A stretch of DNA of 64,000 nt from Alphaproteobacteria bacterium (lineage in GTDB: Bacteria; Pseudomonadota; Alphaproteobacteria; Rhodospirillales; Casp-alpha2): contig JAJRRU010000010.1 in assembly GCA_024279135.1 (NCBI GenBank), positions 372,001 to 436,000 on the forward strand. Reading direction: 5' to 3'. The translations under genes were made by a program, and so were the position numbers. The notes under the pieces are model-generated. The model worked only from the letters and a program-made list of their open reading frames with translations. It was not told the origin of the DNA and did no database searches. How positions within the stretch are numbered: position 1 is the first letter of the stretch; the number at the start of each line of letters is the position of its first letter. Positions 11,540 through 31,383 of this stretch are shown here, piece by piece.

Positions 11540-11556
11540 GCTAACGTTGTTATATA

Positions 11557-11585
11557 TCCGCTGGCCTGATGATCCGGTCAGCGGA
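11557..11585 (+). terminator. Hairpin after the binding-protein gene
   Basis: TCCGCTG and CAGCGGA (7 bp) are extended inward by GCC/GGT (one G-T pair) around a 9-base loop, 17 bases after the stop codon. No T-run follows. It is likely a partial terminator or 3'-end mRNA stabiliser. Confidence 0.45.
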
Positions 11586-11832
11586 CAAACCACGTACGTG
11601 ATTGAGTATCTGGTGAAAAATCCGACATTGTTTTGAGATGCGACCGCGAAGGAGCATTGCTTAAAGGCGGACCTGTTAATCATTTAACGTGATGAGGGTA
11701 GCGCAATTTTTTTTCTTCGTAACTGACCTGCTGTTGGGTTTCAGTAAAATTTGGTAGGGTCTGGTACGTTTGTTCTTGTGTCGTCAGTAAAGTTGATCGC
11801 CGTAAAAAATAAAAAAGCGACGCGTTTAGACA

Positions 11833-11858
11833 AAATCAAGGTTGTAGAAACTTGATTT
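11833..11858 (+). other. Hairpin just upstream of the permease ribosome binding site
   Basis: AAATCAAG and CTTGATTT form an 8-bp stem with a 10-base loop, ending 4 bases before the GGGAGG ribosome binding site of the first permease gene. It may affect mRNA stability or permease translation. Confidence 0.4.
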
Positions 11859-11878
11859 AGGGTGGGAGGCACTTACAC

Positions 11879-12826: not shown

Positions 12827-12838
12827 GCGTATTGAATC

Positions 12839-13756
12839 ATGACAGACAATATTACCAGCACAGGCGAAGAAGAAGAAAAGACCATCTATGATGAGTTGCA
12901 CGATGCGCCGCCCAAAAAGAAGCTTAAGCTTACCTGGGTCGGCAAACTTGGTGTGACCGTCGTTGCTTTCTGGGTGGTTATGGCTTTGATCGGGCCTTAT
13001 ATTGCGCCATTCCACGAGGCCGATATCATCGCCGATGACAGTTACCTTCCCGCGTTCAGCACGGATTCAGAAGGAACCTACATTCTGGGTACGGATTATC
13101 TGGAACGTGATATTTTATCGCGGATAATCTGGGGTGCGCGGACCACCATTGGTATTTCATTCGTTGCAACGTTGCTGGCCTATATGATGGGGGTAACCCT
13201 TGGTATTGGTGCTGCGGTGGCCGGTGGCTGGACCGATATGATCCTGAGCCGGGCCAATGACGCTATCTTATCCCTGCCGTCGATCATGCTTGGATTGCTG
13301 ATCGTTGTGGCATTGGGAACCTCTATACCGATCCTGATTTTGACGGCTTCGCTGATCTATGCCGCCAGTGTTTTCCGAATAGCGCGTGCCTTGGGTCAGG
13401 ATATTATGGTGATCGATTTTGTCGAAGCGGCCCGAGTTCGTGGCGAAGGGTTGTGGTGGGTAATTTCCCGCGAGGTCCTGCCCAATGCGGCTATGCCGCT
13501 GGCCACGGACTTTGGTCTTCGGCTGGTGTTTGTGGTGCTGTTTATTTCGAGCCTCAGTTTCCTCGGTCTCGGTATCCAGCCACCGGCGGCTGACTGGGGC
13601 AGCATGGTTCGCCAGAATTTGAGTGGACTTGGATATGGCTCCTACGCCTCTGTATGGCCCGCTTTGGCGATTGCCAGTTTCACGATTTCCATCAACCTGA
13701 TCGTTGACGATATTTCAGCGAAGTCCGGCGGCAGCCTGGCCAAGAAGATGATATAA
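12839..13756 (+). CDS. ABC transporter permease, DppC type
   Basis: A 305-residue permease starting after a 12-bp gap. The first 45 residues are hydrophilic and acidic (GEEEEKTIYDELHD), followed by a first membrane segment LGVTVVAFWVVMALIGPY and the DppC hallmark LGTDYLERDILSRIIWGAR. The EAA loop is FVEAARVRGEGLWWVISREVL, and SLSFLGLGIQPP is near the end. It pairs with the DppB-type subunit. Its stop codon overlaps the ATPase start by one base (TAATG). Confidence 0.92.
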   Translation: MTDNITSTGEEEEKTIYDELHDAPPKKKLKLTWVGKLGVTVVAFWVVMALIGPYIAPFHEADIIADDSYLPAFSTDSEGTYILGTDYLERDILSRIIWGARTTIGISFVATLLAYMMGVTLGIGAAVAGGWTDMILSRANDAILSLPSIMLGLLIVVALGTSIPILILTASLIYAASVFRIARALGQDIMVIDFVEAARVRGEGLWWVISREVLPNAAMPLATDFGLRLVFVVLFISSLSFLGLGIQPPAADWGSMVRQNLSGLGYGSYASVWPALAIASFTISINLIVDDISAKSGGSLAKKMI

Positions 13757-16219: not shown

Positions 16220-16323
16220 CCATGAATTCAATTCAGGCCAGCAATAGATAATTTCTCTTGCAGAGTGCATGGTCAGTCATGAACACTGTTTGCGGTTCAA
16301 TACCCTGGGCAAGGAGTTCCGCG

Positions 16324-17694
16324 ATGGGCGTCCCTTTTAACGAGTTTATTTCACCATTGTGTTATGAGACCCTGCCCGAGGATGTCCGCAAGGTTATGTT
16401 GCGCAGCCTGCTCGATACTATCGGTGTGGCCGCCGTGGGCAGCACCACAAAGCTTTCTGTCATCGCCCGCCAATTTGCCAGTGAGCACATGGCCGCTGGC
16501 CCGGATGGACCGCAAGCCCGTCTGTTATTTGATGGCCGTGCCGTAAGCCCGGCCGGGGCCGCAATGGGGGGGGCTTTTACCATAGATTCCATCGATGCCC
16601 ATGATGGTTATTCCGCCGTCAAGGGCCATGCCGGATCGGCGGTCCTGCCCGGTGTGCTGGGTGTGGTCGATGGTCTGCGCAGCCAGGGAAAAGATGTTTC
16701 CAGCCACCAGTTCATCACCGCACTGGCCATCGGGTATGAGGTCGGCTACCGCGCAGGCCTGGCCATGCACGCCACGTGCGCCGACTATCATACATCGGGT
16801 GCCTGGACGGCGGTCGGTGTCGCGGCGGCGGCGGCGAAATTGCTGGGGCTGGAGTATGAACAGGTCCGCCATGCCATGGGCATTGCGGAATATCATGGCC
16901 CGCGCAGCCAGATGATGCGCTGCATCGATCATCCCTCCATGGTCCGCGACGGCGTGGGCTGGGGCGCGCCGTCGGGTGTCAGCGCGGCTTATATGGCCCG
17001 TGCCGGTTTCACCGGCGCACCGGCTATTACCGTGGAAGCCAGCGACGATGTGACGGCGGGTTTCTGGTCTGATCTGGGCGTGAACTGGCAAATCAACAAT
17101 ACCCATTATAAACAATATCCGGTTTGTCGCTGGGCACACCCGTCTATCGATGCCGGCGATAAATTAATGCGCGAACATAATCTTACCAGCGATCATATTG
17201 AGCGGGTCCGTATCTCGACATTCCACTATGCTACGCGGCTGGCGGGACATCAGCCCAAGTCCCTCGATGAGCTGACTTATGCCTTGGCATTCCCTCTGGC
17301 TATCATGATTGTAAAACGCCGGATCGGCGCCGAGGAACTGCAAGAAAGCATTCTCAGCGATGAGGAGGTTCTGCGCATCAGTATGGCCACGGAAATCGTC
17401 GATTCTGATCACTATACCAAGATCAGCACCGCCAAGCGCTGGGCCGATGTGACGCTCTATCTGAAAGACGGTCGCGAACTTCAGTCGCCACCCAACACCC
17501 CGCGGGGTGACCCGGACGACCCATTGTCAGACCGCGAAATCAGCACCAAATTCCATTTACTGGCCGACCCGGTTCTGGGCGCAACCAAGACCAGTGATAT
17601 TGAAAATTTGATACCGCAGGATGGTCAGGGAGAATTCGATCTGGCCCGGTTGCTGGACCTGATACTGGCCCCAGTGGACGAAAACCCTGTTTAG
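16324..17694 (+). CDS. MmgE/PrpD family protein
   Basis: A 456-residue protein of the MmgE/PrpD family, which includes 2-methylcitrate dehydratase, cis-aconitate decarboxylase and iminodisuccinate epimerase. Seen blocks: LRSLLDTIGVAAVGS, GAAMGGAFTIDSIDAHDGYS with the conserved Asp-His pair, KGHAGSAVLPGVLGV and HYKQYPVCRWAHPSIDA. The start is the ATG with AAGGAG 7 bases upstream; the open frame begins earlier at 16258 but without such a site. The true substrate cannot be told from sequence. It is convergent with the DeoR-type gene and overlaps its end by 4 bases. Confidence 0.88.
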   Translation: MGVPFNEFISPLCYETLPEDVRKVMLRSLLDTIGVAAVGSTTKLSVIARQFASEHMAAGPDGPQARLLFDGRAVSPAGAAMGGAFTIDSIDAHDGYSAVKGHAGSAVLPGVLGVVDGLRSQGKDVSSHQFITALAIGYEVGYRAGLAMHATCADYHTSGAWTAVGVAAAAAKLLGLEYEQVRHAMGIAEYHGPRSQMMRCIDHPSMVRDGVGWGAPSGVSAAYMARAGFTGAPAITVEASDDVTAGFWSDLGVNWQINNTHYKQYPVCRWAHPSIDAGDKLMREHNLTSDHIERVRISTFHYATRLAGHQPKSLDELTYALAFPLAIMIVKRRIGAEELQESILSDEEVLRISMATEIVDSDHYTKISTAKRWADVTLYLKDGRELQSPPNTPRGDPDDPLSDREISTKFHLLADPVLGATKTSDIENLIPQDGQGEFDLARLLDLILAPVDENPV

Positions 17695-18476
17695 TCGGTC
17701 ACCGTTATTTTAACTTTATTTGCCAGCAGTTTTTGTTCGAGCTTGCGCGGTGGGCGGGTTTCGCACACCAGCTCATTAACCTGGTTCATGTCGCACAAAC
17801 GTAACGGGGCAATCTTGCCGAATTTTCGGGAATCCGCCGCAATGCAGGTTTTCTCCGCTCGTTTGATAATGGCCCCGGCAAATTCCGCTTCACCCAGATG
17901 ATGGACCAGAATACCCTTGTCGGGATGGATTGCCGCGGCGGAAAAGATTGCATACCTGACCTCGAACTTTTTGACGAATTCCAGTGTTTCCGGCCCAAAG
18001 GCTCCGCCGTTCTGGTGGCGCAATTCACCACCGGCCATGAACACCTTGTTACCCGGATGAACAGCCAGAATGTTGGCGACGATGACGGAGTTCGTTACCA
18101 CAAAAAGGCTTTTGTGATCGCTCAGGGCATGGGCGATATAGGCCGTGGTCGAGCCATTGTCGAGGATTAGCGAATCGCCGTCCTTGATTTGACCGGCTAT
18201 GTGTTCGGCAATGCGTTGTTTGGCTTCCTTGCCTTCATTCATGCGTAAGGGGAAGGCGGCTTCCGACAGGGTATCAGGCAACATCACACCGCCGCGGATT
18301 TTTTGTAGCAAGCCTTCTTCGGCGAGAATTTTTACATTTCGGCGGATGGTTCCATCAGACACATCAAGCTCATTGGCCAGGTCGATTATGCTGCTGGTGC
18401 CGTGCATTCTGATGATCTTCAGAATTTCAGCCTGACGTTTGTTTGACAGGATCGTGGGTGGTTTGCGATGGATCAT
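17691..18476 (-). CDS. DeoR-family transcriptional regulator
   Basis: A 261-residue regulator. The N-terminal DeoR helix-turn-helix is KRQAEILKIIRMHGTSSI then NELDVSDGTIRRNVKILAEEGLL with the KIRGG wing. The C-terminal DeoRC sensor domain has DSLILDNGSTTAYIAHAL, FMAGGELRHQNGGAFGP and TCIAADSRKFGKIAPL. DeoR sensors usually bind sugar phosphates or other phosphorylated intermediates, which is of interest because the divergent operon carries two kinase genes. It probably controls that operon through the inverted repeats at 18548-18603. Confidence 0.92.
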   Translation of the reverse strand: MIHRKPPTILSNKRQAEILKIIRMHGTSSIIDLANELDVSDGTIRRNVKILAEEGLLQKIRGGVMLPDTLSEAAFPLRMNEGKEAKQRIAEHIAGQIKDGDSLILDNGSTTAYIAHALSDHKSLFVVTNSVIVANILAVHPGNKVFMAGGELRHQNGGAFGPETLEFVKKFEVRYAIFSAAAIHPDKGILVHHLGEAEFAGAIIKRAEKTCIAADSRKFGKIAPLRLCDMNQVNELVCETRPPRKLEQKLLANKVKITVTD

Positions 18477-18684: not shown

Positions 18685-19647
18685 ATGAAGCGCAACCTAT
18701 TGTTATCTCTTGGGCTGGCCGGTGCAATGGCGCTGGGCAGCCTGGCCTTAACATCGACCAGTGTATCGGCCGGTGTGGAATCCAATGACCCTATCAGGCT
18801 GACAATCCATGACTGGACCGGGCAATATGTCTCGACCCATCTTATGGGCGAAGTCCTGAAAAAAGCCGGTTACAATATTGAATATGTACAGGCCGATTAT
18901 ATCGCCCAGTTTGCCGGGCTCGAAACAGGCGATTTGCACGTCGCCATGGAAATGTGGGAAACCACCGGTAAGCAGGCAATGGAGGCTAGTCTGGCCACTG
19001 GAAAAACGATCGATCTTGGTGAAACCGGCATGGATGCCAAGGAAGACTGGTGGTATCCGTCTTATATGAAAGACGTCTGTCCTGGCCTGCCTGATTGGAA
19101 AGCTCTCAACGATTGCGCCGAATTATTTTCGACGGCTGAAACTGCACCCATGGGTCGCTATCTTGGTGGACCTGTGACCTGGGGCGGATTTGATGATGAG
19201 CGTGTCGAGGCTTTGGGTATGGATTTTGAAGTTGTTCATGCCGGAACGGACGCGGCTTTGTTCGCCGAACTGGAATCTGCCTATCAGCGTAAAGCACCGG
19301 TCCTGTTGTGGATTTATGCACCCCATTGGGCGGTTGCCAAATTCGACGGTGAATGGGTTGAATTCCCGGAATATACCGATGAATGTTATAATGATCCCAG
19401 TTGGGGCATGAATAAAGACATGGCCTATGACTGTGGCAAGCCCTTCGGCTGGATCAAGAAAGTCGGCTGGAAAGGTGGCGAAAAGAAATGGCCGGGTGCG
19501 TTCAAAGCCATTCGCAAGTTCCATATTGAGAACGATGCCATGAGCCAGATGATCGTCGAGATCGATCTCGAAGGCAAGGATCTGGATGCGGTTGTTACCA
19601 ACTGGATGGATAATAACAAGAGCACCTGGCAAGCCTGGATCAAATAA
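18685..19647 (+). CDS. Glycine betaine/proline-type ABC binding protein (ProX/OpuAC family)
   Basis: A 320-residue periplasmic protein. The signal peptide is MKRNLLLSLGLAGAMALG with cleavage near SVSA-G. The mature part has LTIHDWTGQYVSTHLMGEVL, VAMEMWETTGKQ, DWWYPSYM and LLWIYAPHWAVAKF, Trp/Tyr-rich blocks like those that cage quaternary ammonium groups in OpuAC proteins. The start is the ATG preceded by AGGGAG; an in-frame upstream start at 18640 would spoil the signal peptide. It is the first gene of the long operon divergent from the DeoR-type gene. The ligand is probably a betaine or choline-like amine, not fixed by sequence. Confidence 0.9.
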   Translation: MKRNLLLSLGLAGAMALGSLALTSTSVSAGVESNDPIRLTIHDWTGQYVSTHLMGEVLKKAGYNIEYVQADYIAQFAGLETGDLHVAMEMWETTGKQAMEASLATGKTIDLGETGMDAKEDWWYPSYMKDVCPGLPDWKALNDCAELFSTAETAPMGRYLGGPVTWGGFDDERVEALGMDFEVVHAGTDAALFAELESAYQRKAPVLLWIYAPHWAVAKFDGEWVEFPEYTDECYNDPSWGMNKDMAYDCGKPFGWIKKVGWKGGEKKWPGAFKAIRKFHIENDAMSQMIVEIDLEGKDLDAVVTNWMDNNKSTWQAWIK

Positions 19648-19664: not shown

Positions 19665-19692
19665 ACGGGTGGCTGCGATTGCCGCCACCCGT
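19665..19692 (+). terminator. Intercistronic hairpin between binding-protein and ATPase genes
   Basis: ACGGGTGGC and GCCACCCGT form a perfect 9-bp, GC-rich stem with a 10-base loop, 17 bases after the binding-protein stop. No long T-run follows. It probably acts as a partial terminator or mRNA stabiliser. It covers a possible GTG start (19669) of the ATPase gene, which argues for a later start. Confidence 0.6.
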
Positions 19693-19722
19693 TTGCTCAC
19701 TCTAGGCGTGAACTGGACAGAC

Positions 19723-20793
19723 ATGCCCTTACAAACATCGAGTGATATTGATGCCCGACCAATCAAGTTATCTTGCAATGGTATCTGGAAGATATTTGGT
19801 GATGGCGGTGCACAATTATTAAAACAGACAAACAACGCACCCCAGGAAAATGACCTGATAGAACGCTCGCTGATCGCGGCTGTTCGCGATGCAAGCATCG
19901 AGGTTCGCGAGGGTGAAATTTTCATCATCATGGGGCTGTCGGGATCGGGTAAGTCGACCATGGTTCGGTGCCTGTCTCGGCTTATTGAGCCGACCGCCGG
20001 TGAGGTGTTGTTTGAAGGTCAGGATTTGCTGAAGGCAAACCCCAAGGAACTTATTCAAATTCGCCGCCACAAGATGGGCATGGTGTTCCAGCACTTTGCC
20101 CTGCTGCCCCATTTAACGGTTCTGGGCAACGTCGCTTTCCCTCTTGAAATCCAGGGGATCAAACGCCGTGAGCGAGAAGACCGCGCCCTGGAGGTCATCG
20201 AACTGGTTGGCCTGAAAGGGCGCGAAACCTATTATCCACGCGAATTATCCGGCGGCCAGCAACAACGTGTGGGCATTGCGCGCTCCCTGGCGGTGGAACC
20301 CGATATCTGGTTTCTGGATGAGCCTTTTTCCGCCCTCGATCCGTTGATCCGCCGTGAAATGCAGGATGAATTTCTGCGTCTGCAAAAAATGCTTCAGAAA
20401 ACCATTGTTTTTATTACCCATGATTTTGATGAAGCCATTCGTCTGGCCGATCATATTGCCATCATGAAAGACGGTGCGGTCATTCAGATTGGAACCCCGG
20501 AACAACTGGTATTGAACCCGGCGACCGAATATGTGGCGGAATTCACCAATGGCATTCCACGCGCCAAGGTTCTGTCGGTGGGCTCGGTCATGGAACCCGT
20601 CATGGAACCGGGGGGGAATGATTACTCAGGGCGTGTGTTCGCCGATATACGGCTTGAAGAACTGGGCGGCGATATTCTGCACGCCGACAAACCGTTTGCC
20701 GTGATTGATCGCAATGACCAGATTATTGGTCAGGTCACCCGGGACGTCGTTCTGGAAGTTTTGGTCGGTAGTTCTTCACAGAGTGATACATGA
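19723..20793 (+). CDS. Glycine betaine/proline-type ABC ATPase (ProV/OpuAA family)
   Basis: A 356-residue ATPase from the ATG chosen here; the frame is open to a GTG at 19669, which lies inside a hairpin. It has the ProV layout: KLSCNGIWKIFGDGG, an insertion, VREGEIFIIMGLSGSGKSTMVR with Walker A, ELSGGQQQRVGIARSLA signature and IWFLDEPFSALDP Walker B. After the ATPase fold comes a single CBS-like tail (FAVIDRNDQIIGQVT); ProV normally has two CBS modules, so the ionic-strength sensor may be reduced. The stop overlaps the permease start (ATGA). Confidence 0.9.
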   Translation: MPLQTSSDIDARPIKLSCNGIWKIFGDGGAQLLKQTNNAPQENDLIERSLIAAVRDASIEVREGEIFIIMGLSGSGKSTMVRCLSRLIEPTAGEVLFEGQDLLKANPKELIQIRRHKMGMVFQHFALLPHLTVLGNVAFPLEIQGIKRREREDRALEVIELVGLKGRETYYPRELSGGQQQRVGIARSLAVEPDIWFLDEPFSALDPLIRREMQDEFLRLQKMLQKTIVFITHDFDEAIRLADHIAIMKDGAVIQIGTPEQLVLNPATEYVAEFTNGIPRAKVLSVGSVMEPVMEPGGNDYSGRVFADIRLEELGGDILHADKPFAVIDRNDQIIGQVTRDVVLEVLVGSSSQSDT

Positions 20794-22763
20794 CCAGCCG
20801 CTTCACATCCTGGCAGATAGCCTGGGGTGTCGCCCTGTCTCTGGCGGTGGTCGGTTTTTTCCTGAAAGATATTGCACCGTGGGCTTTTAAATACCCCCGT
20901 GACTGGGTTTTCCCCTTACGGTTCTGGATCAGCGATTTTGTGAAATGGTTGTTGAACGATTTCGATCTTGGATTATTTACATTCAAGGAATTTACCCGCG
21001 CAATTTCCTGGCTTATCGAATTACCTTATATATTTGTGCGCTCTTTGCTATCGGATGGTTTCCGCGAGGGCCAGGGCAGCAACGCTATTCAGGTTTTCCC
21101 CCGGGTTTCCTGGATAGCCGTTATTTTGTTCGTGATTATGATCGGGCGTTACGCGCGGGACTGGAAACTGGCCGCTCTGGCTAGCGGGTGTTTTACCTAT
21201 CTCGCAGTTTTTGGCCAATGGGACAGCGCCATGGTCACCTTGAGCTCGATCATCATCGCGGTTCCCCTCGGGGTTGTCGGTGGTATCATGATTGGCGTGC
21301 TGGGCTATCGCTCGGCCACATTCAAGGCCATGATAATGCCGGTTCTGGACCTGATGCAGACCGTACCGGTTTTTGCCTATCTGGTGCCGATCCTGATCCT
21401 GTTTGGTTTTGGGCCGGTATCGGCCATGATCGCGACTGTTATCTATGCCATGCCACCCATGGTTCGTATCACCTTGCTTGCCCTCAGCCAGGTACCGGAA
21501 GAAATCGTTGAATTTGGCCGCATGGCCGGGTGCAATACCCGTCAATTGTTGTGGAAAGTGCTGATCCCGTCGGCCAAACCGGCCCTGATGATCGGGGTTA
21601 ATCAGGTCGTTATGTTGTCGCTGAACATGGTCATTATCGCCTCCATGATCGGTGCCGGTGGTCTGGGCTTCGATGTGCTGAACGCCTTGAAGCGATTGCG
21701 CATCGGTGAGGGTATCGAAGCCGGGCTGGCCATTACCCTGCTGGCCATAGCACTTGATCGGTTAAGCCAGGGCCTGGCCAATCGTCCGCCACCGGAACAT
21801 GGTTCCGAGGTGAAAAATTTTGCGGGTCGTCATCCATTTGCCATTGCCGCACTTGGTTTCATGTCCCTGACCTGGTTGATCGGGCTGGTGCTGCCTGCAT
21901 TCCAGACCTATCCGGAAGGTTTAGAGCTGACCACCGGAACGTTCTGGGGCGATACGGTAAGGTGGCTCAATATCAATTATTTTGACCAGATCGATGGTTT
22001 CAAAAACGCCGTGTTGCTGAATTTCATGATCCCCACAAAGCGGTTTTTGCTGTCGCTGCCCTGGCCCGTGGTGGTTGGACTTGTCGCCATGCTCGGCCTG
22101 CAACTGGGTGGTTGGCGGCTGGCCTTGCTATGCGGGGGAATGGCGTTCGTCATCGCCACTCTCGGCTTATGGCCCAAGGCCATGATCACCGTTTATTTGT
22201 GTGGACTGTCGGTTATTATCGCAGCAGCCATCGGTATTCCGGTGGGTATTATGGCGGCCCTGAATGAACGTTTTCACCGTGTCATTCAGGTTGTTGTCGA
22301 TACCTTGCAGACCCTGCCCAGTTTTGTCTATCTGATGCCCATCGTGATGTTATTCCGGGTCGGTGATTTTTCCGCCTTTATTGCCGTGATAGTTTACGCC
22401 ATTGCACCGGCTATTCGCTATACCGATCATGGTATCCGCCGGGTCCCGCCCCATCTGATCGAAGCGGCTACCCAGATGGGATGCAGCCCGTGGCAGATTT
22501 TATGGCGGGTTCGTCTGCCCATAGCAATGCCAGAGATTATGCTGGGCATTAACCAGACCATCATGATGGCGCTCAGTATGTTGGTTATTACCGCCCTGGT
22601 CGGAACCCGTGATCTCGGTCAGGAAGTCTATATAGCCCTGACCAAGGCCGATAGCGGTCGCGGTCTGGCTGCTGGAATGAGTGTCGCCTTTATCGCCATC
22701 ATCGCTGATCGATTGATCAACGCCTGGAGTGCTAAACGCAAAGCAGAATTGGGGCTCGACTGA
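20790..22763 (+). CDS. Fused double permease of the betaine-type ABC importer (ProW-ProW)
   Basis: A 657-residue membrane protein, about twice the usual ProW length, with two BPD_transp_1 domains in tandem. Copy one has PVLDLMQTVPVFAYLVPILILFG and the EAA-type loop EFGRMAGCNTRQLLWKVLIPSAKP. Copy two has DTLQTLPSFVYLMPIVMLF and EAATQMGCSPWQILWRVRLPIAMP. Both have the QVVMLSLNMVIIASMIGAGGLG-type block that follows. The two halves therefore probably form the transmembrane dimer from one chain. A variable N-terminal region of about 90 residues precedes them. The start overlaps the ATPase stop by 4 bases. Confidence 0.92.
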   Translation: MTSRFTSWQIAWGVALSLAVVGFFLKDIAPWAFKYPRDWVFPLRFWISDFVKWLLNDFDLGLFTFKEFTRAISWLIELPYIFVRSLLSDGFREGQGSNAIQVFPRVSWIAVILFVIMIGRYARDWKLAALASGCFTYLAVFGQWDSAMVTLSSIIIAVPLGVVGGIMIGVLGYRSATFKAMIMPVLDLMQTVPVFAYLVPILILFGFGPVSAMIATVIYAMPPMVRITLLALSQVPEEIVEFGRMAGCNTRQLLWKVLIPSAKPALMIGVNQVVMLSLNMVIIASMIGAGGLGFDVLNALKRLRIGEGIEAGLAITLLAIALDRLSQGLANRPPPEHGSEVKNFAGRHPFAIAALGFMSLTWLIGLVLPAFQTYPEGLELTTGTFWGDTVRWLNINYFDQIDGFKNAVLLNFMIPTKRFLLSLPWPVVVGLVAMLGLQLGGWRLALLCGGMAFVIATLGLWPKAMITVYLCGLSVIIAAAIGIPVGIMAALNERFHRVIQVVVDTLQTLPSFVYLMPIVMLFRVGDFSAFIAVIVYAIAPAIRYTDHGIRRVPPHLIEAATQMGCSPWQILWRVRLPIAMPEIMLGINQTIMMALSMLVITALVGTRDLGQEVYIALTKADSGRGLAAGMSVAFIAIIADRLINAWSAKRKAELGLD

Positions 22764-22764
22764 T

Positions 22765-23649
22765 ATGTCAGGTGATACCACAACCTTGGTGAAAAATCTG
22801 TCATGCTGGAATACACCGGTCGATCCCATACCGCTCGGGGGCGGGATTACCAATACCAATTTCACGGTGCAGGATGGCGAGCGGAAATATGTCGTGCGCA
22901 TCGGTGAAGATATTCCGGTCCATGGTATCATGCGCTTTAATGAATTATCGGCCAGTCGTGCGGCTCACGGGGCGGGCCTGTCTCCGGAGGTTTTCCATAG
23001 TGAAAATGGCGTGCTGGTTATCGACTTTATCGCCAGCCGGACATTATCACCCGCCGACATTCGAAACCTGGTCATGCTGGAACAGATCGTGCCGATTATC
23101 CGCCGTGTGCATCATGACATTCCAAGATATCTGGAAGGCCCCGTCCTGAGTTTCTGGGTGTTTCAGGTGTTGCGCGATTATCGCCGCACCCTGCGTCAGG
23201 CTAACAGCCGGATGATCGCCGATCTGGATGGTTTGGAAAGCATCGCCCATGAACTGGAACACGCCGTCGGGTCGGTGCATCTGGTGTTTGGCCATAATGA
23301 TTTGCTGGCGGCAAATTTTCTCGATGATGGGCAACGTCTGTGGATTATCGATTGGGACTATGCCGGTTTCAACAGTCCCCTGTTTGATCTCGCAAACCTG
23401 GCGTCCAACAATGAATTCGACGTGGATCTGGAACACAGATTACTGGAACTTTATTTCCACGATGGCGTCCCGGACAAAGTGTGGCAATCGTTCAGCGCCA
23501 TGAAATGTGCGTCGCTTCTTCGTGAGGCTATGTGGAGCATGGTATCAGAAATTCATTCCACACTGGACTTCGATTATGTGGCCTACACCACAGAAAATCT
23601 GGAACGGTTTAATACGGTATATGAACATTACAAATTGAATAGGAGCTAA
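22765..23649 (+). CDS. Choline/ethanolamine kinase-like phosphotransferase (first copy)
   Basis: A 294-residue protein of the APH/choline-kinase fold. It has a nucleotide loop IPLGGGITNTNFTVQDGERKY, the catalytic Brenner motif FGHNDLLAANFL (H-x-D-4x-N) and the metal-binding, choline-kinase-style IDWDYAGFNSPLFDLANL. It should transfer phosphate from ATP to a hydroxyl of a small amino-alcohol such as choline or ethanolamine. I chose the ATG one base after the permease stop; a longer frame starts inside the permease gene. The flavoprotein gene begins 1 base after its stop, so it is firmly in the operon. Confidence 0.87.
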   Translation: MSGDTTTLVKNLSCWNTPVDPIPLGGGITNTNFTVQDGERKYVVRIGEDIPVHGIMRFNELSASRAAHGAGLSPEVFHSENGVLVIDFIASRTLSPADIRNLVMLEQIVPIIRRVHHDIPRYLEGPVLSFWVFQVLRDYRRTLRQANSRMIADLDGLESIAHELEHAVGSVHLVFGHNDLLAANFLDDGQRLWIIDWDYAGFNSPLFDLANLASNNEFDVDLEHRLLELYFHDGVPDKVWQSFSAMKCASLLREAMWSMVSEIHSTLDFDYVAYTTENLERFNTVYEHYKLNRS

Positions 23650-23650
23650 A

Positions 23651-26095
23651 ATGAGTTCACTGCCCACCCATGCCCGTGTAGTGATTATCGGTGGCGGGAT
23701 CATCGGTTGTAGTACGGCCTATCACCTTGGCAAACTTGGCTGGAGTGATGTGGTTGTCCTGGAAAAACACAAACTGACCAGTGGATCTACCTTTCACGCC
23801 GCGGGGCTGGTCGGGCAATTGCGCAGCAGTGCAAATATAACCCAGTTACTGAAATACAGTGTTGAGCTGTACGATACACTGGAAGCCGAAACCGGCCTGG
23901 GCACGGGCTGGAAGATGAACGGTGGTTTGCGGCTGGCCTGTAATTCACAACGCATGATCGAGATTGAACGACAGGCTACCACGGCCCAGAGCTTCGGTCT
24001 GGAGATGAATGTTTTGAGCGCTCAGCAGGCTCAGGATTTATGGCCGTTGATGGATATCTCAGACGTTGTCGGGGCGGCCTTCCTGCCCAGCGATGGTCAG
24101 GCCAATCCTTCTGACATTACCATGGCGCTAGCCAAGGGTGCGCGCAATTGCGGTATTCAAATTGTCGAGGACTGTACTGTTACCGGGATTGTCAAGAAGG
24201 ACGGACGAGCCTGTGGCGTGACCACCTCGCTGGGTGATATTGAGTGCGAGGTCGTGGTTAATTGTGGTGGACAATGGGCCGGTGAAATAGGCCGTATGGC
24301 CGGGGTCACCGTGCCACTGATTTCTGTCGAGCACCAGTTCATGATTACCGAGCTTATCGAGGGCATCACCAGCGACCTGCCCACCTTGCGCGATCCCGAC
24401 CGGCTGATCTATTTCAAGGAAGATGTTGGCGGTCTGGTCATGGGCGGGTACGAGCCAAATCCCATCGGCTGGGCCAAGGACGGCATTCCGGAAGGCTTTA
24501 ACTTTACCTTGCTGGAATCCAACTGGGATCATTTTGAACAACTGATGTTACAGGCTCTGGAGCGTGTTCCGGCACTGGAAACTGCCGGGGTCAAGACCCT
24601 GACCAATGGACCGGAATCCTTTACCCCCGATGGCAATTTTATCCTCGGTGAAGCACCAGAACTGGATAATTTCTTTGTCGGTGCCGGGTTTAACGCCTTC
24701 GGTATCGCATCGGGTGGCGGGGCTGGTAAAGCCCTGGCTGAATGGATTGTCGGTGGCGAGCCTTCGCTGGATCTGTGGCCGGTCGATATCCGGCGCTTCG
24801 GTAATCATCACCGTGATCAGGACTGGGTACGGACCCGGACACTGGAGCTTTACGGTAAGCATTACACCATGTCGTGGCCCTTCGAGGAGCACGAGAGTGC
24901 CCGGCCAACCCGCACCTCTGCCCTGTATGAACGGTTGGTAGCCGATGGTGCATGTTTTGGCGAAAAGATGGGTTGGGAAAGGCCAAACTGGTTTGCCCCT
25001 CCCGGTGTGGAACCAAAAGACGTTTATTCATTCGGGCGCCAGAACTGGTTTGAGCATGTGGGGCAAGAACACAAAGCCGCCCGCGAGCGGGTGGTGCTCT
25101 ATGACCAAAGCTCTTTTGCCAAGTTCATGGTTAGCGGTCCCGGTGCGCAAGAAGCCCTGAGCTGGATTTGTGCCAATGATATCGCCAAACCACCGGGGGC
25201 TTTGATCTATACCCAGATGCTCAATGTCCGAGGCGGGATTGAGTGCGATCTGACGGTGGTTCGTCTGGCCGAAGACCAGTTCTATCTGGTCACCGGAACA
25301 GGATATCGAACCCATGATTTCCAGTGGATCCGGCGCAATATTCCGGATGGCTGTGATGTGACGCTGGATGATGTCACCGACAGCATGTGCACCTTGTCCC
25401 TGATGGGGCCGCGCGCTCGCGATGTTTTGTCACGGGTCACTAAAACGGATGTTTCCAATGCATCGTTTCCGTTTGGAAGTTACCAGCAAATTGTCATCGC
25501 TGAGGCAACCGTCAAAGCTTTGCGGATCACCTATGTTGGTGAACTGGGCTGGGAATTTCATTTCCCCATTGAGCACGCCCTGACGGTGTATCAGGCATTG
25601 ATGTCCGCCGGGCAGGATTGCGGTATAACCAATGCCGGATACCGGTCTATTGAGTCCCTGCGACTGGAAAAAGGTTACCGGGCATGGTCTTCGGATATCG
25701 GACCGGATTATTCGCCCTTTGAATCCGGTTTGGGCTGGGCGGTCAAGTTGAAAAGTAATATTCCGTTTTTGGGCCGCGAGGCGGCTGTTGCCCTGAAGGA
25801 TAACCCGCGCACCAAATTGCTGGCTTGTTTCACGGTTGATGACCCGGATGTGGTGTTGCTGGGACGGGAAACCATTTACCGAAACGGTGAGCGGGTCGGC
25901 TGGCTGAGCAGTGGCGGGTATGGCTATACCATCGCCAAGGGTATCGGATATGGCTATGTACGTAATGGGGATGGTGTCACCCGTGATTATCTTGCCGCCG
26001 GAAACTATGAACTGGACGTTGCAACCAGACGGGTTCCATGTACGATACATTTTCAGGCTCTTGTCGATCCGGCAATGGAGCGTATCAAGGCCTGA
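23651..26095 (+). CDS. Dimethylglycine/sarcosine dehydrogenase-like flavoprotein (DAO + GcvT domains)
   Basis: An 814-residue two-part enzyme. Residues 8-390 are a DAO-type FAD domain: VVIIGGGIIGCSTAYHLGKLG, then TSGSTFHAAGLVGQL, in which His 49 is at the position that carries covalent FAD in dimethylglycine dehydrogenase. After a short FAO_M-type linker, residues from about 430 form a GcvT folate-binding domain (MLNVRGGIECDLTVVRL, ITYVGELGWEFHFP, ESLRLEKGYRAW), with its C-terminal barrel (RVGWLSSGGYGY) at the end. Such enzymes oxidise an N-methyl group and pass the carbon to tetrahydrofolate. Substrate could be dimethylglycine, sarcosine or another N-methyl amine. It lies between two kinase genes. 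Confidence 0.88.
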   Translation: MSSLPTHARVVIIGGGIIGCSTAYHLGKLGWSDVVVLEKHKLTSGSTFHAAGLVGQLRSSANITQLLKYSVELYDTLEAETGLGTGWKMNGGLRLACNSQRMIEIERQATTAQSFGLEMNVLSAQQAQDLWPLMDISDVVGAAFLPSDGQANPSDITMALAKGARNCGIQIVEDCTVTGIVKKDGRACGVTTSLGDIECEVVVNCGGQWAGEIGRMAGVTVPLISVEHQFMITELIEGITSDLPTLRDPDRLIYFKEDVGGLVMGGYEPNPIGWAKDGIPEGFNFTLLESNWDHFEQLMLQALERVPALETAGVKTLTNGPESFTPDGNFILGEAPELDNFFVGAGFNAFGIASGGGAGKALAEWIVGGEPSLDLWPVDIRRFGNHHRDQDWVRTRTLELYGKHYTMSWPFEEHESARPTRTSALYERLVADGACFGEKMGWERPNWFAPPGVEPKDVYSFGRQNWFEHVGQEHKAARERVVLYDQSSFAKFMVSGPGAQEALSWICANDIAKPPGALIYTQMLNVRGGIECDLTVVRLAEDQFYLVTGTGYRTHDFQWIRRNIPDGCDVTLDDVTDSMCTLSLMGPRARDVLSRVTKTDVSNASFPFGSYQQIVIAEATVKALRITYVGELGWEFHFPIEHALTVYQALMSAGQDCGITNAGYRSIESLRLEKGYRAWSSDIGPDYSPFESGLGWAVKLKSNIPFLGREAAVALKDNPRTKLLACFTVDDPDVVLLGRETIYRNGERVGWLSSGGYGYTIAKGIGYGYVRNGDGVTRDYLAAGNYELDVATRRVPCTIHFQALVDPAMERIKA

Positions 26096-26119
26096 AATGG
26101 GGAATAGGGGATAAGTAAA

Positions 26120-27037
26120 ATGGAAGAAGTGCGTCGACAGCTTGCTCGTATTGAGATGTTTCAGGGCCGCGAGGCAGAGGCACAAATCGAGCGTCTGGGG
26201 GGATTGACGAACTTGGTCTACAAGATCAGCCTGGATGGTGAGGCGTATATCTTGCGCATTGCCGGTGAAGGAACCGATGAGATTATTGACCGGGTGATCG
26301 AAAAACATAATGCCAGGGTCGCAGCGAATGCCGGCATGTCGGCTGATGTGCTGTTTTTCGATGCTTCCGATGGGCTGATGTTGGCAAGCTATATTCCTGG
26401 CGAGACCATGAGTGCCGAAAAGTTTACCAATTCAGCGGGCAGTGCGGCTCGCGCCGCCCGGGCCTTTAAAATCATTCATACCTGCGGCCAGGAATTCAAG
26501 TTCCGGTTCGAACTGTTTGCCATGATGGACGACTATCTCAAGGTGCTGGATGATCTGGGCGCAACACTTCCAGACGGTTATCACGATGTGGTTCACGAGG
26601 CCCAGGCGGTCCGTCGGGCCATCGATGCGCACCCTGCCGATCTGGTGCCCTGTCATTGTGATCCGCTTTGTGAAAATTTCATTGACGATGGTGAGCGGAT
26701 GTGGATTATCGATTGGGAATATTCCGGGATGAATGATCCACTGTGGGACCTGGGCGATCTGTCCATCGAGGCTGGTTTCACAGAGGCACAAGACCGCGAA
26801 ATGATGGAGGCGTATTTTGATAATCAACCCACCGAAGCACAGTTTGCCCGCATGGTCATTTACAAGGCTATGGCGGATCTTCTGTGGACATTATGGGGGT
26901 TGATCCAACATGCCAATAACAACCCCGTCGACGATTTCTGGGCCTATTCTATTGGCCGGTTTGAACGGTGTAAAAAATTGATGGCCTCGCCTGAATTTAC
27001 CCGGCACCTTGAAGCCATGAATAGTACACATGAATAA
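26120..27037 (+). CDS. Choline/ethanolamine kinase-like phosphotransferase (second copy)
   Basis: A 305-residue relative of the gene at 22765. It has the nucleotide loop RLGGLTNLVYKISLDGEAYILR, the catalytic motif VPCHCDPLCENFIDDG (H-x-D-4x-N) and IDWEYSGMNDPLWDLGDLS, which is very close to the choline-kinase signature. It starts 24 bp after the flavoprotein stop. The two copies share the motifs but differ widely elsewhere, so they are old paralogues with probably different substrates. Phosphorylation of an amino-alcohol is the likely reaction. Confidence 0.88.
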   Translation: MEEVRRQLARIEMFQGREAEAQIERLGGLTNLVYKISLDGEAYILRIAGEGTDEIIDRVIEKHNARVAANAGMSADVLFFDASDGLMLASYIPGETMSAEKFTNSAGSAARAARAFKIIHTCGQEFKFRFELFAMMDDYLKVLDDLGATLPDGYHDVVHEAQAVRRAIDAHPADLVPCHCDPLCENFIDDGERMWIIDWEYSGMNDPLWDLGDLSIEAGFTEAQDREMMEAYFDNQPTEAQFARMVIYKAMADLLWTLWGLIQHANNNPVDDFWAYSIGRFERCKKLMASPEFTRHLEAMNSTHE

Positions 27038-27111: not shown

Positions 27112-28506
27112 TTGACCATGCTTAGAATAATTTCTCCGGTTGACGGCAGTGTTTATGCGGAACGTCCCTACGCCGATCCGCAAGCAATTCGTGATACCCT
27201 GACCAGTGCCAGTGAGGCGCAAAATTCCTGGAAGCTGGTCAGTATTGCCGAGCGTGGGGCTATTTGCTCAAAAGCAATTGATGCCTTTGTCGCCGACAAG
27301 GATCGCATCAGCGATGAACTGGCCTGGCAAATGGGTCGGCCCATTCGTTTTGGCCCCGGTGAAGTGGGCGGATTTGAAGAACGCGCCCGTTATATGATCT
27401 CCATTGCCGAGCAGGCGCTCAAACCGGTTGATGTGGGGCCCAAGGATGGGTTCGTGCGTTATATCAAACGCGAACCTGTGGGTGTGGTGCTGACCATTGC
27501 ACCGTGGAATTTCCCGTTTATGACGGCGGTTAATTCGATTATTCCGGCGCTTATGGCGGGCAATGCAGTGATCTTGAAACACGCCCAGCAGACCCTGTTG
27601 TGCGCCGAACGGATCGCGGACGCTTTTGTCGCCGCCGGATTACCCGAAGGCCTGTTTCAGGTTCTGCACATGTCACACGACCAGACAGCCGAGGTTATCC
27701 AGTCTCCAGAGATCAACTTTGTTGCTTTTACCGGGTCGGTCCCGGCGGGTGCCACCATGGAACGTAATGCTGCGGGCCGGTTCATCGGTATGGGACTGGA
27801 GCTGGGCGGCAAGGATCCGGCTTACGTTTGCGCCGATGTGGATGTAAACTATGCGGCTGAAAATCTGGTCGATGGGGCGTTTTTCAATACCGGGCAGTCG
27901 TGCTGCGGCATCGAGAGAATTTATGTTCACGAGGATGTTTATGACGCCTTTGTGGCGCGGTTCTGTGAGGTGGTTCGCGGCTATGTGCTGGGCAGTCCCA
28001 TGGACCCGGAAACTACTTTGGGACCGTTGGTCACGACCAAGGCCGCCGACTTTGTCCGGGGCCAGATTGATGATGCTGTGGCCGCCGGTGCCACGGCTTT
28101 GATCGATACGTCGAAATTTACCCGTGATGAGGCTGGCACACCCTATATGGCACCACAGGTTCTGGTCGATGTGGATCATTCCATGCGGGTCATGACCGAA
28201 GAAAGTTTCGGTCCGGTGGTCGGTATTATGAAGGTCAGGGACGATGATCAGGCCGTCGAGTTGATGAACGATAGTGAGTTTGGCTTGACCGCGTCGATCT
28301 GGACGTCTTCACAGGACACCGCTATCGCCATCGGTGACCGGATTAATACCGGGACTTTTTTCATGAACCGGTGTGACGCACTGGACCCGGCACTGGCCTG
28401 GACGGGGGTTAAAAATACCGGACGGGGTTGCACTTTATCCAGTGTAGGTTATGAAGCCATCACGCGGCCCAAGTCCTATCATTTGCGTGTCGATATTGAT
28501 AAATAA
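27112..28506 (+). CDS. NAD(P)-dependent aldehyde dehydrogenase
   Basis: A 464-residue member of the ALDH superfamily. VLTIAPWNFPFMTAVNSIIPAL is the cofactor-binding motif; NFVAFTGSVPAG and GLELGGKDPAYV carry the general-base Glu; the catalytic Cys is C264 in NTGQSCCGIERI, followed by a second Cys. ESFGPVVGIM is the C-terminal signature. It oxidises an aldehyde to the acid. The next gene is an alcohol dehydrogenase, so the two probably act in sequence on an alcohol released from the imported amine, or on formaldehyde. The family is too broad for a precise substrate. Confidence 0.92.
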   Translation: MTMLRIISPVDGSVYAERPYADPQAIRDTLTSASEAQNSWKLVSIAERGAICSKAIDAFVADKDRISDELAWQMGRPIRFGPGEVGGFEERARYMISIAEQALKPVDVGPKDGFVRYIKREPVGVVLTIAPWNFPFMTAVNSIIPALMAGNAVILKHAQQTLLCAERIADAFVAAGLPEGLFQVLHMSHDQTAEVIQSPEINFVAFTGSVPAGATMERNAAGRFIGMGLELGGKDPAYVCADVDVNYAAENLVDGAFFNTGQSCCGIERIYVHEDVYDAFVARFCEVVRGYVLGSPMDPETTLGPLVTTKAADFVRGQIDDAVAAGATALIDTSKFTRDEAGTPYMAPQVLVDVDHSMRVMTEESFGPVVGIMKVRDDDQAVELMNDSEFGLTASIWTSSQDTAIAIGDRINTGTFFMNRCDALDPALAWTGVKNTGRGCTLSSVGYEAITRPKSYHLRVDIDK

Positions 28507-28526: not shown

Positions 28527-29714
28527 ATGACCATGTCTTTGTCCCTTGATCCGGAAACCCTTGTTGGCAACTGGAACTTTCCTACCACTATAAAATTCGG
28601 ACCCGGGCGGATTGTCGAACTGCCCGCAGTCTGTGCCGATCAGGGTATGTCAAATCCATTGATTATTACCGATCCGGGCTTGCGTGATTTGCCCATGACC
28701 AAGGCCATTCTGGACAACTTTAAGGCGGCAAACATTCAATGTGGACTGTTTTCAAATATAAAACCAAACCCGGTCGGGCAGAATATTGACGATGGTGTGG
28801 TCGCATATAAATCCGGCGGTCATGACGGTGTTATCGCCTATGGTGGTGGCAGCGGCCTGGATGCGGCAAAGGCCGTAGCCCTGATGGTCGGTCAGGACCG
28901 ACCGCTGTGGGACTTTGAGGATGAAGGTGACAACTGGACCAGGGTCAAGCTCGATGGGGTGGCCAGCGTGGTCGCCGTGCCTACCACCTCGGGTACCGGA
29001 TCGGAAGTTGGTCGGGCCTCGGTGATCATTAATGAAGAGGCACACCTGAAGAAAATTATTTTCCATCCCTCCATGTGTCCGGCCATTGTGATCGCCGATC
29101 CGGAATTGACCCTTGGTCTGCCGGCCAAGATCACGGCGGCCACCGGCATGGACGCGTTGTCGCATAATCTGGAAGCCTTTTGTGCGCCAGGCTTCCATCC
29201 CATGGCCCGTGGCATGGCGGTTGAAGGTATCAGGATCACCAAAGACTGGCTGCCCGAAGCAACTCGCAATGGTAGCAACATTTCTGCCCGCGCCATGATG
29301 ATGGCAGCCTCAACCATGGGGGCCACCGCTTTTCAGCGCGGCCTGGGCGGTATGCACGCGCTGGCTCATCCATTGGGGGCTACTTTTGATGCCCATCACG
29401 GGCTGCTCAATGCCATTTTGATGCCTTATATATTATGGGCCAACAAATCGGTTATCGAGGACGACATCTGTTATCTGGGCGGTTGCATCGGACTGGCCAA
29501 GAGCTTCGATGCGGTGGTTGACTGGATTCTTGGTTTGCGTGAAGAACTGGGTATTCCCAACGATCTTGCGGCTATTGGAATTCCAGAGGATTGCGTCGAT
29601 GATATTGGTGCCAAGGCCGAGGTCGATCCGGCGGCTGGTGGTAATCCCATCACGTATACCGGCTCGCAATATGCGGCGATCTGCCGCAAGGCTGTTCTTG
29701 GTCAGCACGGCTGA
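28527..29714 (+). CDS. Iron-containing (group III) alcohol dehydrogenase
   Basis: A 395-residue enzyme with the family layout: KFGPGRIVELPAV at the start, an NAD-binding GGGSGLDAAKAVAL, VPTTSGTGSEVGRASVI, and metal ligands in ATGMDALSHNLEAFCAPG and GGMHALAHPLGATFDAHHGLLNA. It oxidises an alcohol or reduces an aldehyde with NAD(P). It begins 20 bp after the aldehyde dehydrogenase gene with AAGGAAA before the ATG. Group III enzymes act on substrates as different as methanol, propanediol, hydroxypropionate and hydroxyethylphosphonate-like compounds, so the substrate is open. Confidence 0.92.
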   Translation: MTMSLSLDPETLVGNWNFPTTIKFGPGRIVELPAVCADQGMSNPLIITDPGLRDLPMTKAILDNFKAANIQCGLFSNIKPNPVGQNIDDGVVAYKSGGHDGVIAYGGGSGLDAAKAVALMVGQDRPLWDFEDEGDNWTRVKLDGVASVVAVPTTSGTGSEVGRASVIINEEAHLKKIIFHPSMCPAIVIADPELTLGLPAKITAATGMDALSHNLEAFCAPGFHPMARGMAVEGIRITKDWLPEATRNGSNISARAMMMAASTMGATAFQRGLGGMHALAHPLGATFDAHHGLLNAILMPYILWANKSVIEDDICYLGGCIGLAKSFDAVVDWILGLREELGIPNDLAAIGIPEDCVDDIGAKAEVDPAAGGNPITYTGSQYAAICRKAVLGQHG

Positions 29715-29744: not shown

Positions 29745-30500
29745 ATGACAATTCGTGCGGTAACCTTTGATCTATGGGATACCATCGTTCATGACGATTC
29801 GGATGAGCCCAAACGCGCCGCCAAGGGCTTGCGCAGCAAACGCGACGAGCGTCGGCATCTGGTATGGCAGGCTCTTAACACCGTCGAGCCCATTGATCTG
29901 GCTTTGGTGGTGGCGGCTTATGATGTGGCCGATGCCGCCTTTAACGTGGTGTGGAAGGAAAATCATATCAACTGGACCGTGGACCAGCGTATGCGGGTTA
30001 TCCTGAGCGGTCTGGGTCGGACACTGCCCGATGATGTGATGGCCAAGCTGATCCATGACACCGGACGCATGGAGGTTAACATTCCGCCCGATCTGATCGA
30101 TGGCATCAAAGAGGCTCTGGAAGATTTACACGGTCGTTACAAGTTGTGCATTGTCTCGGACGCCATCGTCACACCGGGAACCGGTTTGCGCGACCTGTTG
30201 GAAGCCTATGGCCTGAAACAGTATTTTACCGGCTTTGCTTTTTCTGATGAGGTCGGTCATTCCAAACCCCACAAGTCCATGTTTGACAGTGCCGCCCAGC
30301 AGCTCGGTGTGGAACTTCATGAAATCGTTCACATTGGCGATCGGGACCATAATGACGTGAAGGGCCCCCATGCCATCGGTGCCAAGGCCATTTTGTTTAC
30401 TGCCACCCGCGCCGATGATCGTGATACAACCACAGCCGATGCGATCTGTGACCACCACCGTGACCTGGCCGCGACCATTGACCGGCTGGCCGCCAGCTAA
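29745..30500 (+). CDS. HAD-superfamily hydrolase lacking the second motif-I aspartate
   Basis: A 251-residue HAD protein. Motif I reads TFDLWDTIVHDD: the nucleophile Asp is present, but Trp stands where phosphatases have the second, acid-base Asp. Motif II is LCIVSDAIV, motif III includes the Lys in GHSKPHKSMFD, and motif IV is VHIGDRDHNDVKGPHAIG. Absence of the second Asp is typical of dehalogenases and some other non-phosphatase HADs, so calling it a phosphatase would be unsafe. It sits between the alcohol dehydrogenase and amidotransferase genes with short gaps, so it is probably in the same operon. Confidence 0.82.
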   Translation: MTIRAVTFDLWDTIVHDDSDEPKRAAKGLRSKRDERRHLVWQALNTVEPIDLALVVAAYDVADAAFNVVWKENHINWTVDQRMRVILSGLGRTLPDDVMAKLIHDTGRMEVNIPPDLIDGIKEALEDLHGRYKLCIVSDAIVTPGTGLRDLLEAYGLKQYFTGFAFSDEVGHSKPHKSMFDSAAQQLGVELHEIVHIGDRDHNDVKGPHAIGAKAILFTATRADDRDTTTADAICDHHRDLAATIDRLAAS

Positions 30501-30519: not shown

Positions 30520-31383
30520 ATGACTGAACAAATCAGATTTCTGGTCATCGATGGCTACGCGCTGGCTGGACGGGAAGACCTGAAGGCCGGCGGGGCATCC
30601 ACGGCTGGCGAGTTGTATGAAAGAATGCTCAAAAAATGTCTGCCCGGTTGCGCTGTAGATGTTTTGTTTCCGGCGGATCCCGGAGCAAAATTACCCCAAG
30701 GTGCCGATATCGCTCAATACGACGGTATCGCCTGGACCGGTTCCAGCCTGACGGTTCACAAACCCGATGAGAATGTCACACCCCAGATCGAGTTTGCCAA
30801 AGCCGCCTTTAAAGCCAGGGTGCCCAGTTTCGGCAGTTGCTGGGCGGCCCAGATCGCCGTGGTGGCAGCTGGTGGAATTTGTGCCGTGAACCCGCGGGGC
30901 CGCGAGATGGGTTTTGCCCGCAAGATTTCTCTCACCTCGGAAGGCCGCGGCCACCCGCTTTATTACGGCAAAAATTCGGTGTTTGATGCCTACATCAGCC
31001 ACGATGACGAAATTACCCATGTGCCGCCTGGCGGTATTGTGCTGGCCTCAAATGCCTATACCCGGGTCCAGTCGGTTACCGTGACCCATCAGGGCGGGGT
31101 ATTTTGGGGGTTGCAGTATCATCCGGAATACGATCTGCATGAAATGTCCCGGCTGTGTTATTGCCGCAAGCAAAAACTCACCGACAAGGGGTTTTTCCGC
31201 TCGACCGACGACGCTCAGGTTTTTGTCGATCAACTGGAGATCCTGTTCCAGGACCCCGGCCGCACGGATATATCCTGGCTGCTGGGCATTGATGAGGACA
31301 TCATGAACGAAGATATTCGTCTAGCCGAGGTCCGCAACTGGATCGAACAACTGGTGATCCCTACGCGTATCGCCCGGCGTTAA
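30520..31383 (+). CDS. Class-I glutamine amidotransferase-like hydrolase
   Basis: A 287-residue GATase-1 protein of the GMP-synthase-like type. The nucleophile is C107 in PSFGSCWAAQIAVVAAGG, and the His-Glu pair is in LQYHPEYD (H201, E203). No partner synthase domain is fused, so it may act alone as a gamma-glutamyl or amide hydrolase. The last 70 residues extend beyond the amidotransferase fold. It is the final gene of the cluster; a run of 13-bp repeats begins at its stop codon. The role in amine breakdown is inferred from position only. Confidence 0.85.
   Translation: MTEQIRFLVIDGYALAGREDLKAGGASTAGELYERMLKKCLPGCAVDVLFPADPGAKLPQGADIAQYDGIAWTGSSLTVHKPDENVTPQIEFAKAAFKARVPSFGSCWAAQIAVVAAGGICAVNPRGREMGFARKISLTSEGRGHPLYYGKNSVFDAYISHDDEITHVPPGGIVLASNAYTRVQSVTVTHQGGVFWGLQYHPEYDLHEMSRLCYCRKQKLTDKGFFRSTDDAQVFVDQLEILFQDPGRTDISWLLGIDEDIMNEDIRLAEVRNWIEQLVIPTRIARR

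Follow-up and report, generated by a model that had tools for sequence, protein, structure and literature searches.

Methylated ethanolamines arise from phospholipid head groups and from choline breakdown. An incomplete search of the literature returned no assigned genes for their aerobic bacterial catabolism, and, among genes for methylethanolamine catabolism, only those of the cobalamin route of Eubacterium limosum. In the MthK/MthB/MthC/MthA system of this anaerobe, the base is initially phosphorylated by a choline-kinase-type enzyme, after which an N-methyl group passes to tetrahydrofolate; phosphocholine is demethylated and choline is not, so that phosphorylation must come first, and the argument that the phosphate serves as an acidic handle has been made for MthK/MthB (PMC12155760). 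The operon described here lies in the window (the whole 64-kb stretch of DNA that was analysed) and resembles this system in combining choline-kinase-type enzymes with a predicted folate-linked demethylase. It differs in that demethylation in E. limosum falls to MthB, a cobalamin-based member of the MttB methyltransferase superfamily, whereas the window encodes a flavin oxidoreductase and no MttB-superfamily methyltransferase beside the kinases of its operon, and in that it has two kinases instead of one. It would be an aerobic, flavin-based counterpart of MthK/MthB.

Three further systems invite comparison. Dimethylglycine dehydrogenase (DMGDH), dimethylglycine oxidase and sarcosine dehydrogenase share with the window's flavin enzyme, FADox1, the domain order FAD, FAO_M, GcvT as well as the same His/Tyr pair and folate Asp, but FADox1 sits in a separate clade, is genetically tied to the kinases and is predicted to act on a substrate that carries a phosphate, not a carboxylate. 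The gamma-glutamylethanolamide pathway is known from Phaeobacter (PMC10132767) and, with GlnA4, from Streptomyces (PMC6529630). In Phaeobacter MED193, it is encoded by an ethanolamine-specific operon (RpiR-FGase-TRAP-GS-ALDH-FeADH) whose proteins become more abundant on phosphoethanolamine; ethanolamine is bound by EtoX (PMC10132767). The window shares with this pathway an orthologous aldehyde dehydrogenase (ALDH) and Fe-dependent alcohol dehydrogenase (Fe-ADH) and a gamma-glutamyl hydrolase-type gene, but adds kinases and a demethylase, has its ligase encoded elsewhere and carries a class-I glutamine amidotransferase-like hydrolase (GATase) in place of the formylglutamate-amidohydrolase-type enzyme. 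As to LicA and the Mesorhizobium loti protein 3DXQ, one of the two kinases, K2, falls in the 3DXQ clade and retains the rim Glu and every aromatic residue of the LicA pocket; the other, K1, lacks two pocket residues, and the setting in the window is catabolic, whereas that of LicA is cell-wall decoration.

On balance, we favour reading the operon as a catabolic route for N-methylated ethanolamines that proceeds from phosphorylation over demethylation to ethanolamine gamma-glutamylation.

Organization of the locus

17691..18476, minus strand: DeoR/GlpR-family regulator, divergent from the operon (Pfam DeoRC, 5e-44)
18685..19647, plus strand: OpuAC-type periplasmic substrate-binding protein (Pfam OpuAC, 1e-46)
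19669..20793, plus strand: ProV-type ABC ATPase (NCBIfam proV, above cut-off)
20790..22763, plus strand: duplicated (fused) ABC permease (Pfam BPD_transp_1, two stretches)
22765..23649, plus strand: K1, choline-kinase-like phosphotransferase with a remodelled amine pocket, N215/E254 (Pfam, tree, pocket alignment, AF2 model)
23651..26095, plus strand: FADox1, DMGDH-type FAD and folate (GcvT) oxidoreductase (Pfam domains, conserved catalytic and folate residues, own clade)
26120..27037, plus strand: K2, choline-kinase-like phosphotransferase with the canonical LicA choline pocket (Pfam, tree, pocket alignment, relative 3DXQ)
27118..28506, plus strand: ALDH, gamma-glutamyl-aminoacetaldehyde dehydrogenase orthologue (relatives in ethanolamine-type operons)
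28527..29714, plus strand: Fe-ADH, gamma-glutamylethanolamide dehydrogenase orthologue (relatives, co-occurrence with K1)
29745..30500, plus strand: HAD-family hydrolase, candidate phosphatase (Pfam Hydrolase)
30520..31383, plus strand: GATase, candidate gamma-glutamylglycine hydrolase (Pfam GATase)

K1 (294 aa, ATG start at 22765) and K2 (305 aa) enclose FADox1 (814 aa). Since the spacers between the permease (stop at 22763) and K1, between K1 and FADox1 and between FADox1 and K2 measure only 1, 1 and 24 nt, the importer genes, K1-FADox1-K2 and the genes for ALDH, Fe-ADH, HAD and GATase form a single operon, and as the same layout recurs in other genomes, the arrangement is not due to chance. 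A promoter and terminator scan gave a signal near chance. The importer upstream of K1 is a TMAO/betaine-type ABC system, the closest solved structure to its binding protein being the glycine-betaine/proline-type binding protein 4xz6 (E=2e-82), and a DeoR gene occupies the equivalent position in many relatives. Right before the DeoR gene lies an MmgE/PrpD-family gene (16258-17694), itself preceded by an oligopeptide-type ABC importer (9914-15678). A tRNA search across the 64-kb window found none.

Two intact kinases with different amine pockets

K1 and K2 both match the Choline_kinase family (Pfam PF01633) with E=7e-24 and E=1e-25, respectively, their scores of 85 and 91 bits lying well above the cut-off of 29, and the best 50 PDB matches listed for the AF2 model of K1 (pLDDT 95) are choline/ethanolamine kinases throughout. 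The best NCBIfam match, the guanitoxin-type N-oxide kinase GntI, was rejected because its 163 bits fall short of the cut-off of 357. A first-pass annotation of this DNA had recognized both genes by an H-x-D-4x-N motif and an IDW-D/E-Y block, and these are indeed present, the former as HNDLLAAN and HCDPLCEN. It had also considered that one of the kinases might be inactive, but neither looks so: the catalytic HxDxxxxN residues and the later Asp are conserved in both (D179/N184/D196 in K1, D181/N186/D198 in K2), and both enzymes, intact and catalytically complete, should be active.

The same annotation held a recent duplication to be unlikely and proposed a phylogeny of the two proteins. With an identity of 26% between K1 and K2 and two old, separate clades, a recent duplication is ruled out. 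A carefully built ML tree with 85 kinases groups 47 K1 sequences in one clade (support 98/86) and places K2 in a separate clade that contains 3DXQ, its closest solved relative (E=1e-112); LicA comes to lie on the K2 side, on a long branch that makes its placement unsure.

The choline pocket of LicA consists of T29, D176, V178, Y197, E213, W251, W254 and Y268 (PMC4364537), a numbering that we checked and that fits the aligned sequence exactly. Five of these residues (Y197, E213, W251, W254 and Y268) are all kept in 21/21 K2 sequences, and the E213/W251 pair recurs in 80/80 K2 of a second set (80 loci, retrieved with K2 as query). K1 retains Y, W and Y at positions 197, 254 and 268 and does not have the five-residue choline pocket: E213 is replaced by N in 47/47 sequences and W251 by E in 45/47, with the N/E pair found in 43/45 K1 of the second set.

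Because these pocket residues differ between the clades in a fixed way, the substrates of K1 and K2 should differ as well, and the two kinases likely act on different amines or methylation states. The first-pass annotation had offered two explanations for the presence of two kinases, a role in different methylation states of the substrate or a pathway with two different phosphorylation steps; two phosphorylations in series on one molecule need not be assumed. The exchange of an aromatic wall for an acid, with the rim acid gone as well, suggests that the substrate of K1 is an amine that still bears an N-H and is thus less methylated. Eukaryotic ethanolamine kinases likewise keep the pocket tryptophans, which is why a Trp alone is no proof of choline specificity.

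On another contig of the same genome (C6; L005 9178-11090), two further choline-kinase-like genes lie side by side, accompanied by genes for a DeoR regulator, an amidase and an oligopeptide-type ABC importer; the His of HxD is lost from one of the two kinases (CMNDTLAGN). Relatives of this pair occur in Agrobacterium vitis, in Paracoccus yeei (followed by EutBC) and in Arthrobacter (near GS, IMPase and amidase genes), and such pairs apparently represent a separate two-kinase system.

A dimethylglycine-dehydrogenase-type oxidoreductase between the kinases

The middle gene had been annotated as a GcvT-type dehydrogenase. GcvT domains are present, but the protein is better described as a dimethylglycine/sarcosine-dehydrogenase-type enzyme with an N-terminal FAD domain than as a plain GcvT protein: Pfam detects DAO, FAO_M, GCV_T and GCV_T_C (E down to 4e-78), and almost the entire length of FADox1 can be aligned with human DMGDH (E=2e-164) and with Arthrobacter dimethylglycine oxidase. 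In the latter, H225 and Y259 are the catalytic pair and D552 is the acid of the folate site; their counterparts in FADox1 are H228, Y254 and D533, and these residues are conserved in all FADox1 as well as in all FADox2, the related enzymes linked to K2. In a quick tree, FADox1 forms a clade of its own (SH-aLRT 97) and FADox2 a separate one, and human DMGDH groups with other paralogues, apart from FADox1. When the FADox1/2 alignment was searched for a distinct phosphate-binding residue, the clade-specific positions T245, K256, W87 and S114 emerged, none of them decisive without coordinates.

In Salipiger, the K1-FADox1 cluster also contains genes for ETF alpha/beta, FolD, PurU, GlyA and SdaA, and in 1.4-Mb genomes that are SAR11-like as judged from size and gene content it contains those for ETF and ETF-QO. 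A folate-linked oxidation by FADox1 fits these neighbours. The window's own 3.6-Mb genome encodes eleven paralogous FAD-GcvT oxidoreductases, which suggests a broad use of N-methylated amines.

Two modules, compressed in the window

That no standard amine pathway is known to contain a flavin enzyme sandwiched between two kinases, as the first-pass annotation remarked, still holds. The sandwich is, however, not unique: it condenses two modules that many genomes carry, K1-FADox1 and FADox2-K2. In a survey of 385 alphaproteobacterial genomes, K1 is present in 42 (about 11%) and K2 in 13, and K2 is nested within K1, with 12/13 K2 genomes also encoding K1 (p=7e-12, uncorrected for relatedness). An FAD/GcvT oxidoreductase adjoins K1 in 36/47 K1 loci and is missing from the immediate surroundings in the other 11; FADox2 adjoins K2 in 50/80 K2 loci, and K1 or a FADox lies within the locus in 72/80. 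The order K1-FADox1-FADox2-K2 occurs in 16/80 K2 loci, the exact order of the window (K1-FADox1-K2) in three of the 80 (L160, L162 and L180), with HAD and GATase downstream. In Ruegeria, the modules are distant from each other, as DeoR-ABC-K1-FADox1-IMPase and DeoR-FADox2-K2. Both pairings, K1-FADox1 and K2-FADox2, are conserved across classes. The regulator and the importer differ from lineage to lineage.

The nearest relative of the window, a Rhodospirillales metagenome bin (L109/L153), has the four-gene form K1-FADox1-FADox2-K2 and is sister to the window in the trees of K1, K2 and FADox1 alike; from this, FADox2 seems to have been lost in the window operon. No FADox2 gene is present in the operon, and the nearest FADox2-like gene of the genome resides on contig C17. 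The K2 module may be devoted to a more methylated substrate and the K1 module to a later step, which would match the nesting of K2 within K1.

On C17 (L147 8527-12504), an MttB-superfamily methyltransferase gene is located directly upstream of the FADox2-like gene; the closest solved relatives of its product include glycine betaine methyltransferase, and the enzyme could supply a first, quaternary demethylation. MttB/corrinoid genes are not a standard part of the K2 module, as only this locus and one other were found. At L094 (2773-10358), K1 has as neighbours an MttB-family gene and two divergent FAD-GcvT oxidoreductases, the same parts wired differently. A SAM methyltransferase gene is present in 11/80 K2 loci, mostly directly upstream of K2 and in opposite orientation (L020 13279-13920, L103, L159, L165, L170, L172, L188, L190, L200, L216, L221, L226); its assignment as a phospholipid N-methyltransferase is unsupported, the product being METTL27-like instead.

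Link to ethanolamine gamma-glutamylation

The neighbouring genes indicate where specifically the route leads, namely into ethanolamine gamma-glutamylation. In Ruegeria and Paracoccus, close relatives of the window ALDH and Fe-ADH are encoded as a pair in operons of the form RpiR-FGase-TRAP-GS-ALDH-FeADH, the same gene order as in Phaeobacter MED193, so that an orthologous pair of the gamma-glutamylethanolamide pathway is present. The contact between the two gene sets is direct in several lineages: in Salipiger, an FGase-GS-ALDH-FeADH block is contiguous with K1-FADox1; in Shinella, FGase-RpiR-GS is adjacent to the K1 module; and in an Octadecabacter bin (L230), GS-ALDH-FeADH adjoins FADox2-K2. 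A gene for the ethanolamine permease EutH follows K1-FADox1 in two lineages. Fe-ADH of the window type is encoded in 38/42 K1 genomes as compared to 113/385 overall (p=1e-18, uncorrected for relatedness), and in many K1 genomes it lies beside ALDH, GS or GATase genes.

The GATase has its catalytic Cys (GSCWAAQ) and His-Glu (YHPE), and in Legionella lytica a GATase gene comes after GS-ALDH-FeADH. The best PDB relative of the HAD protein is a probable phosphoserine phosphatase. Most HAD phosphatases carry a second (+2) Asp in motif I; this residue is absent from the HAD protein of the window (FDLWDT), and the phosphatase step could therefore belong to another enzyme. Phosphatase-type genes are also seen in K2 loci, as IMPase in 14/80 and as HAD in 10/80.

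A GS-like ligase gene was sought in the window operon and none was found. The nearest orthologue lies on contig C12 in a run of genes (L123 8607-14454) that further comprises a neighbouring phosphonate-type ABC importer, a formylglutamate-amidohydrolase-type gene and a HAD hydrolase gene; this ligase is 56% identical to that of Salipiger. Ligases of the C12 type are not enriched in K1 genomes (7/42, p=0.16, 385 genomes, uncorrected for relatedness), and in these genomes GS types other than the C12 type adjoin Fe-ADH.

Proposed pathway and alternatives

The ABC importer, by its family, would take up a small methylated amine. K2, with its choline pocket, would phosphorylate the base with more methyl groups (N,N-dimethylethanolamine or choline), and K1, with its altered pocket, the one with fewer (N-methylethanolamine), the phosphate serving as an anionic handle in the role that the carboxylate plays in dimethylglycine. 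FADox1, which has the requisite residues, would then oxidize an N-methyl group of the phosphorylated amine and transfer the C1 unit to folate as methylene-THF, and FADox2 would take a second methyl group in many relatives. Quaternary choline itself cannot be oxidized in this manner, and the flavin substrates are hence likely phospho-dimethyl- and phospho-monomethylethanolamine. A phosphatase (HAD here, inositol-monophosphatase type elsewhere) may release ethanolamine, which the GS-like ligase encoded elsewhere together with the orthologous Fe-ADH and ALDH and the GATase would convert via gamma-glutamylethanolamide and gamma-glutamylglycine to glycine.

That the kinases, the demethylase and the ethanolamine genes are functionally linked seems secure. 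The particular substrates and the reaction sequence given above are put forward with a little better than even confidence, and we give about an even chance to the wider proposition that the operon encodes an undescribed aerobic phosphobase demethylation, in which methylation-state-specific kinases and an oxidative demethylation at the phosphate level precede ethanolamine gamma-glutamylation. No published description of such an oxidative kinase-primed route was found in the literature search, which was incomplete.

Conceivably, the same enzymes handle another substrate, for example a longer amino alcohol or a hydroxylated betaine that is phosphorylated, demethylated by FADox1 and then passed to Fe-ADH, ALDH and GATase. 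The variation of regulator and importer across lineages would suit this reading, as would the further kinase pairs of the family that adjoin amidases and oligopeptide-type importers; the orthology of ALDH and Fe-ADH to ethanolamine-pathway enzymes, the EutH genes in two lineages and the full choline pocket of K2 nevertheless make it unlikely, if still credible.

Reaction order, moreover, cannot be read from gene order, and FADox1 might demethylate free amino alcohols whose products are then phosphorylated by the kinases for trapping, for regulation or to feed lipid synthesis. This reversed order appears quite improbable: the nearest flavoproteins use substrates with an acidic group, the sole characterized kinase-linked demethylation needs phosphorylation first (PMC12155760), two pockets would be unneeded for one product, and the phosphatase-type genes in the clusters would reverse the final phosphorylation.

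Slightly less probable again is that FADox1 works in glycine betaine catabolism as an ordinary dimethylglycine or sarcosine dehydrogenase, with the kinases as chance neighbours that serve, for example, phospholipid head groups. Its best solved relatives are dimethylglycine dehydrogenases and the importer is of the betaine type, but the FADox1 clade stands apart from human DMGDH and other paralogues, ten further such oxidoreductases are already available in the genome, and the kinase pairings of FADox1 and FADox2 are conserved across classes. That K1 and K2 form one heteromeric kinase with a catalytic and a regulatory subunit, as their joint encoding and the missing His in one member of the separate C6 pair might suggest, is highly improbable given that both keep every catalytic residue, that 30/42 K1 genomes have no K2 and that K1 and K2 belong to two separate modules in Ruegeria.

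Implications

The favoured route for N-methylated ethanolamines would be the catabolic mirror image of plant phosphoethanolamine N-methylation. In many bacteria, small SAR11-like genomes included, the cluster supplies a named candidate for each step. The E213/W251 switch, in LicA numbering, may set the methylation state that choline-kinase-type enzymes accept and would be useful for reannotating the many proteins that are named choline/ethanolamine kinase. If the proposed route is correct, activation by phosphorylation ahead of demethylation evolved in an oxidative as well as in a cobalamin-dependent form, and the pathway would be widespread in Proteobacteria, including SAR11-like cells.
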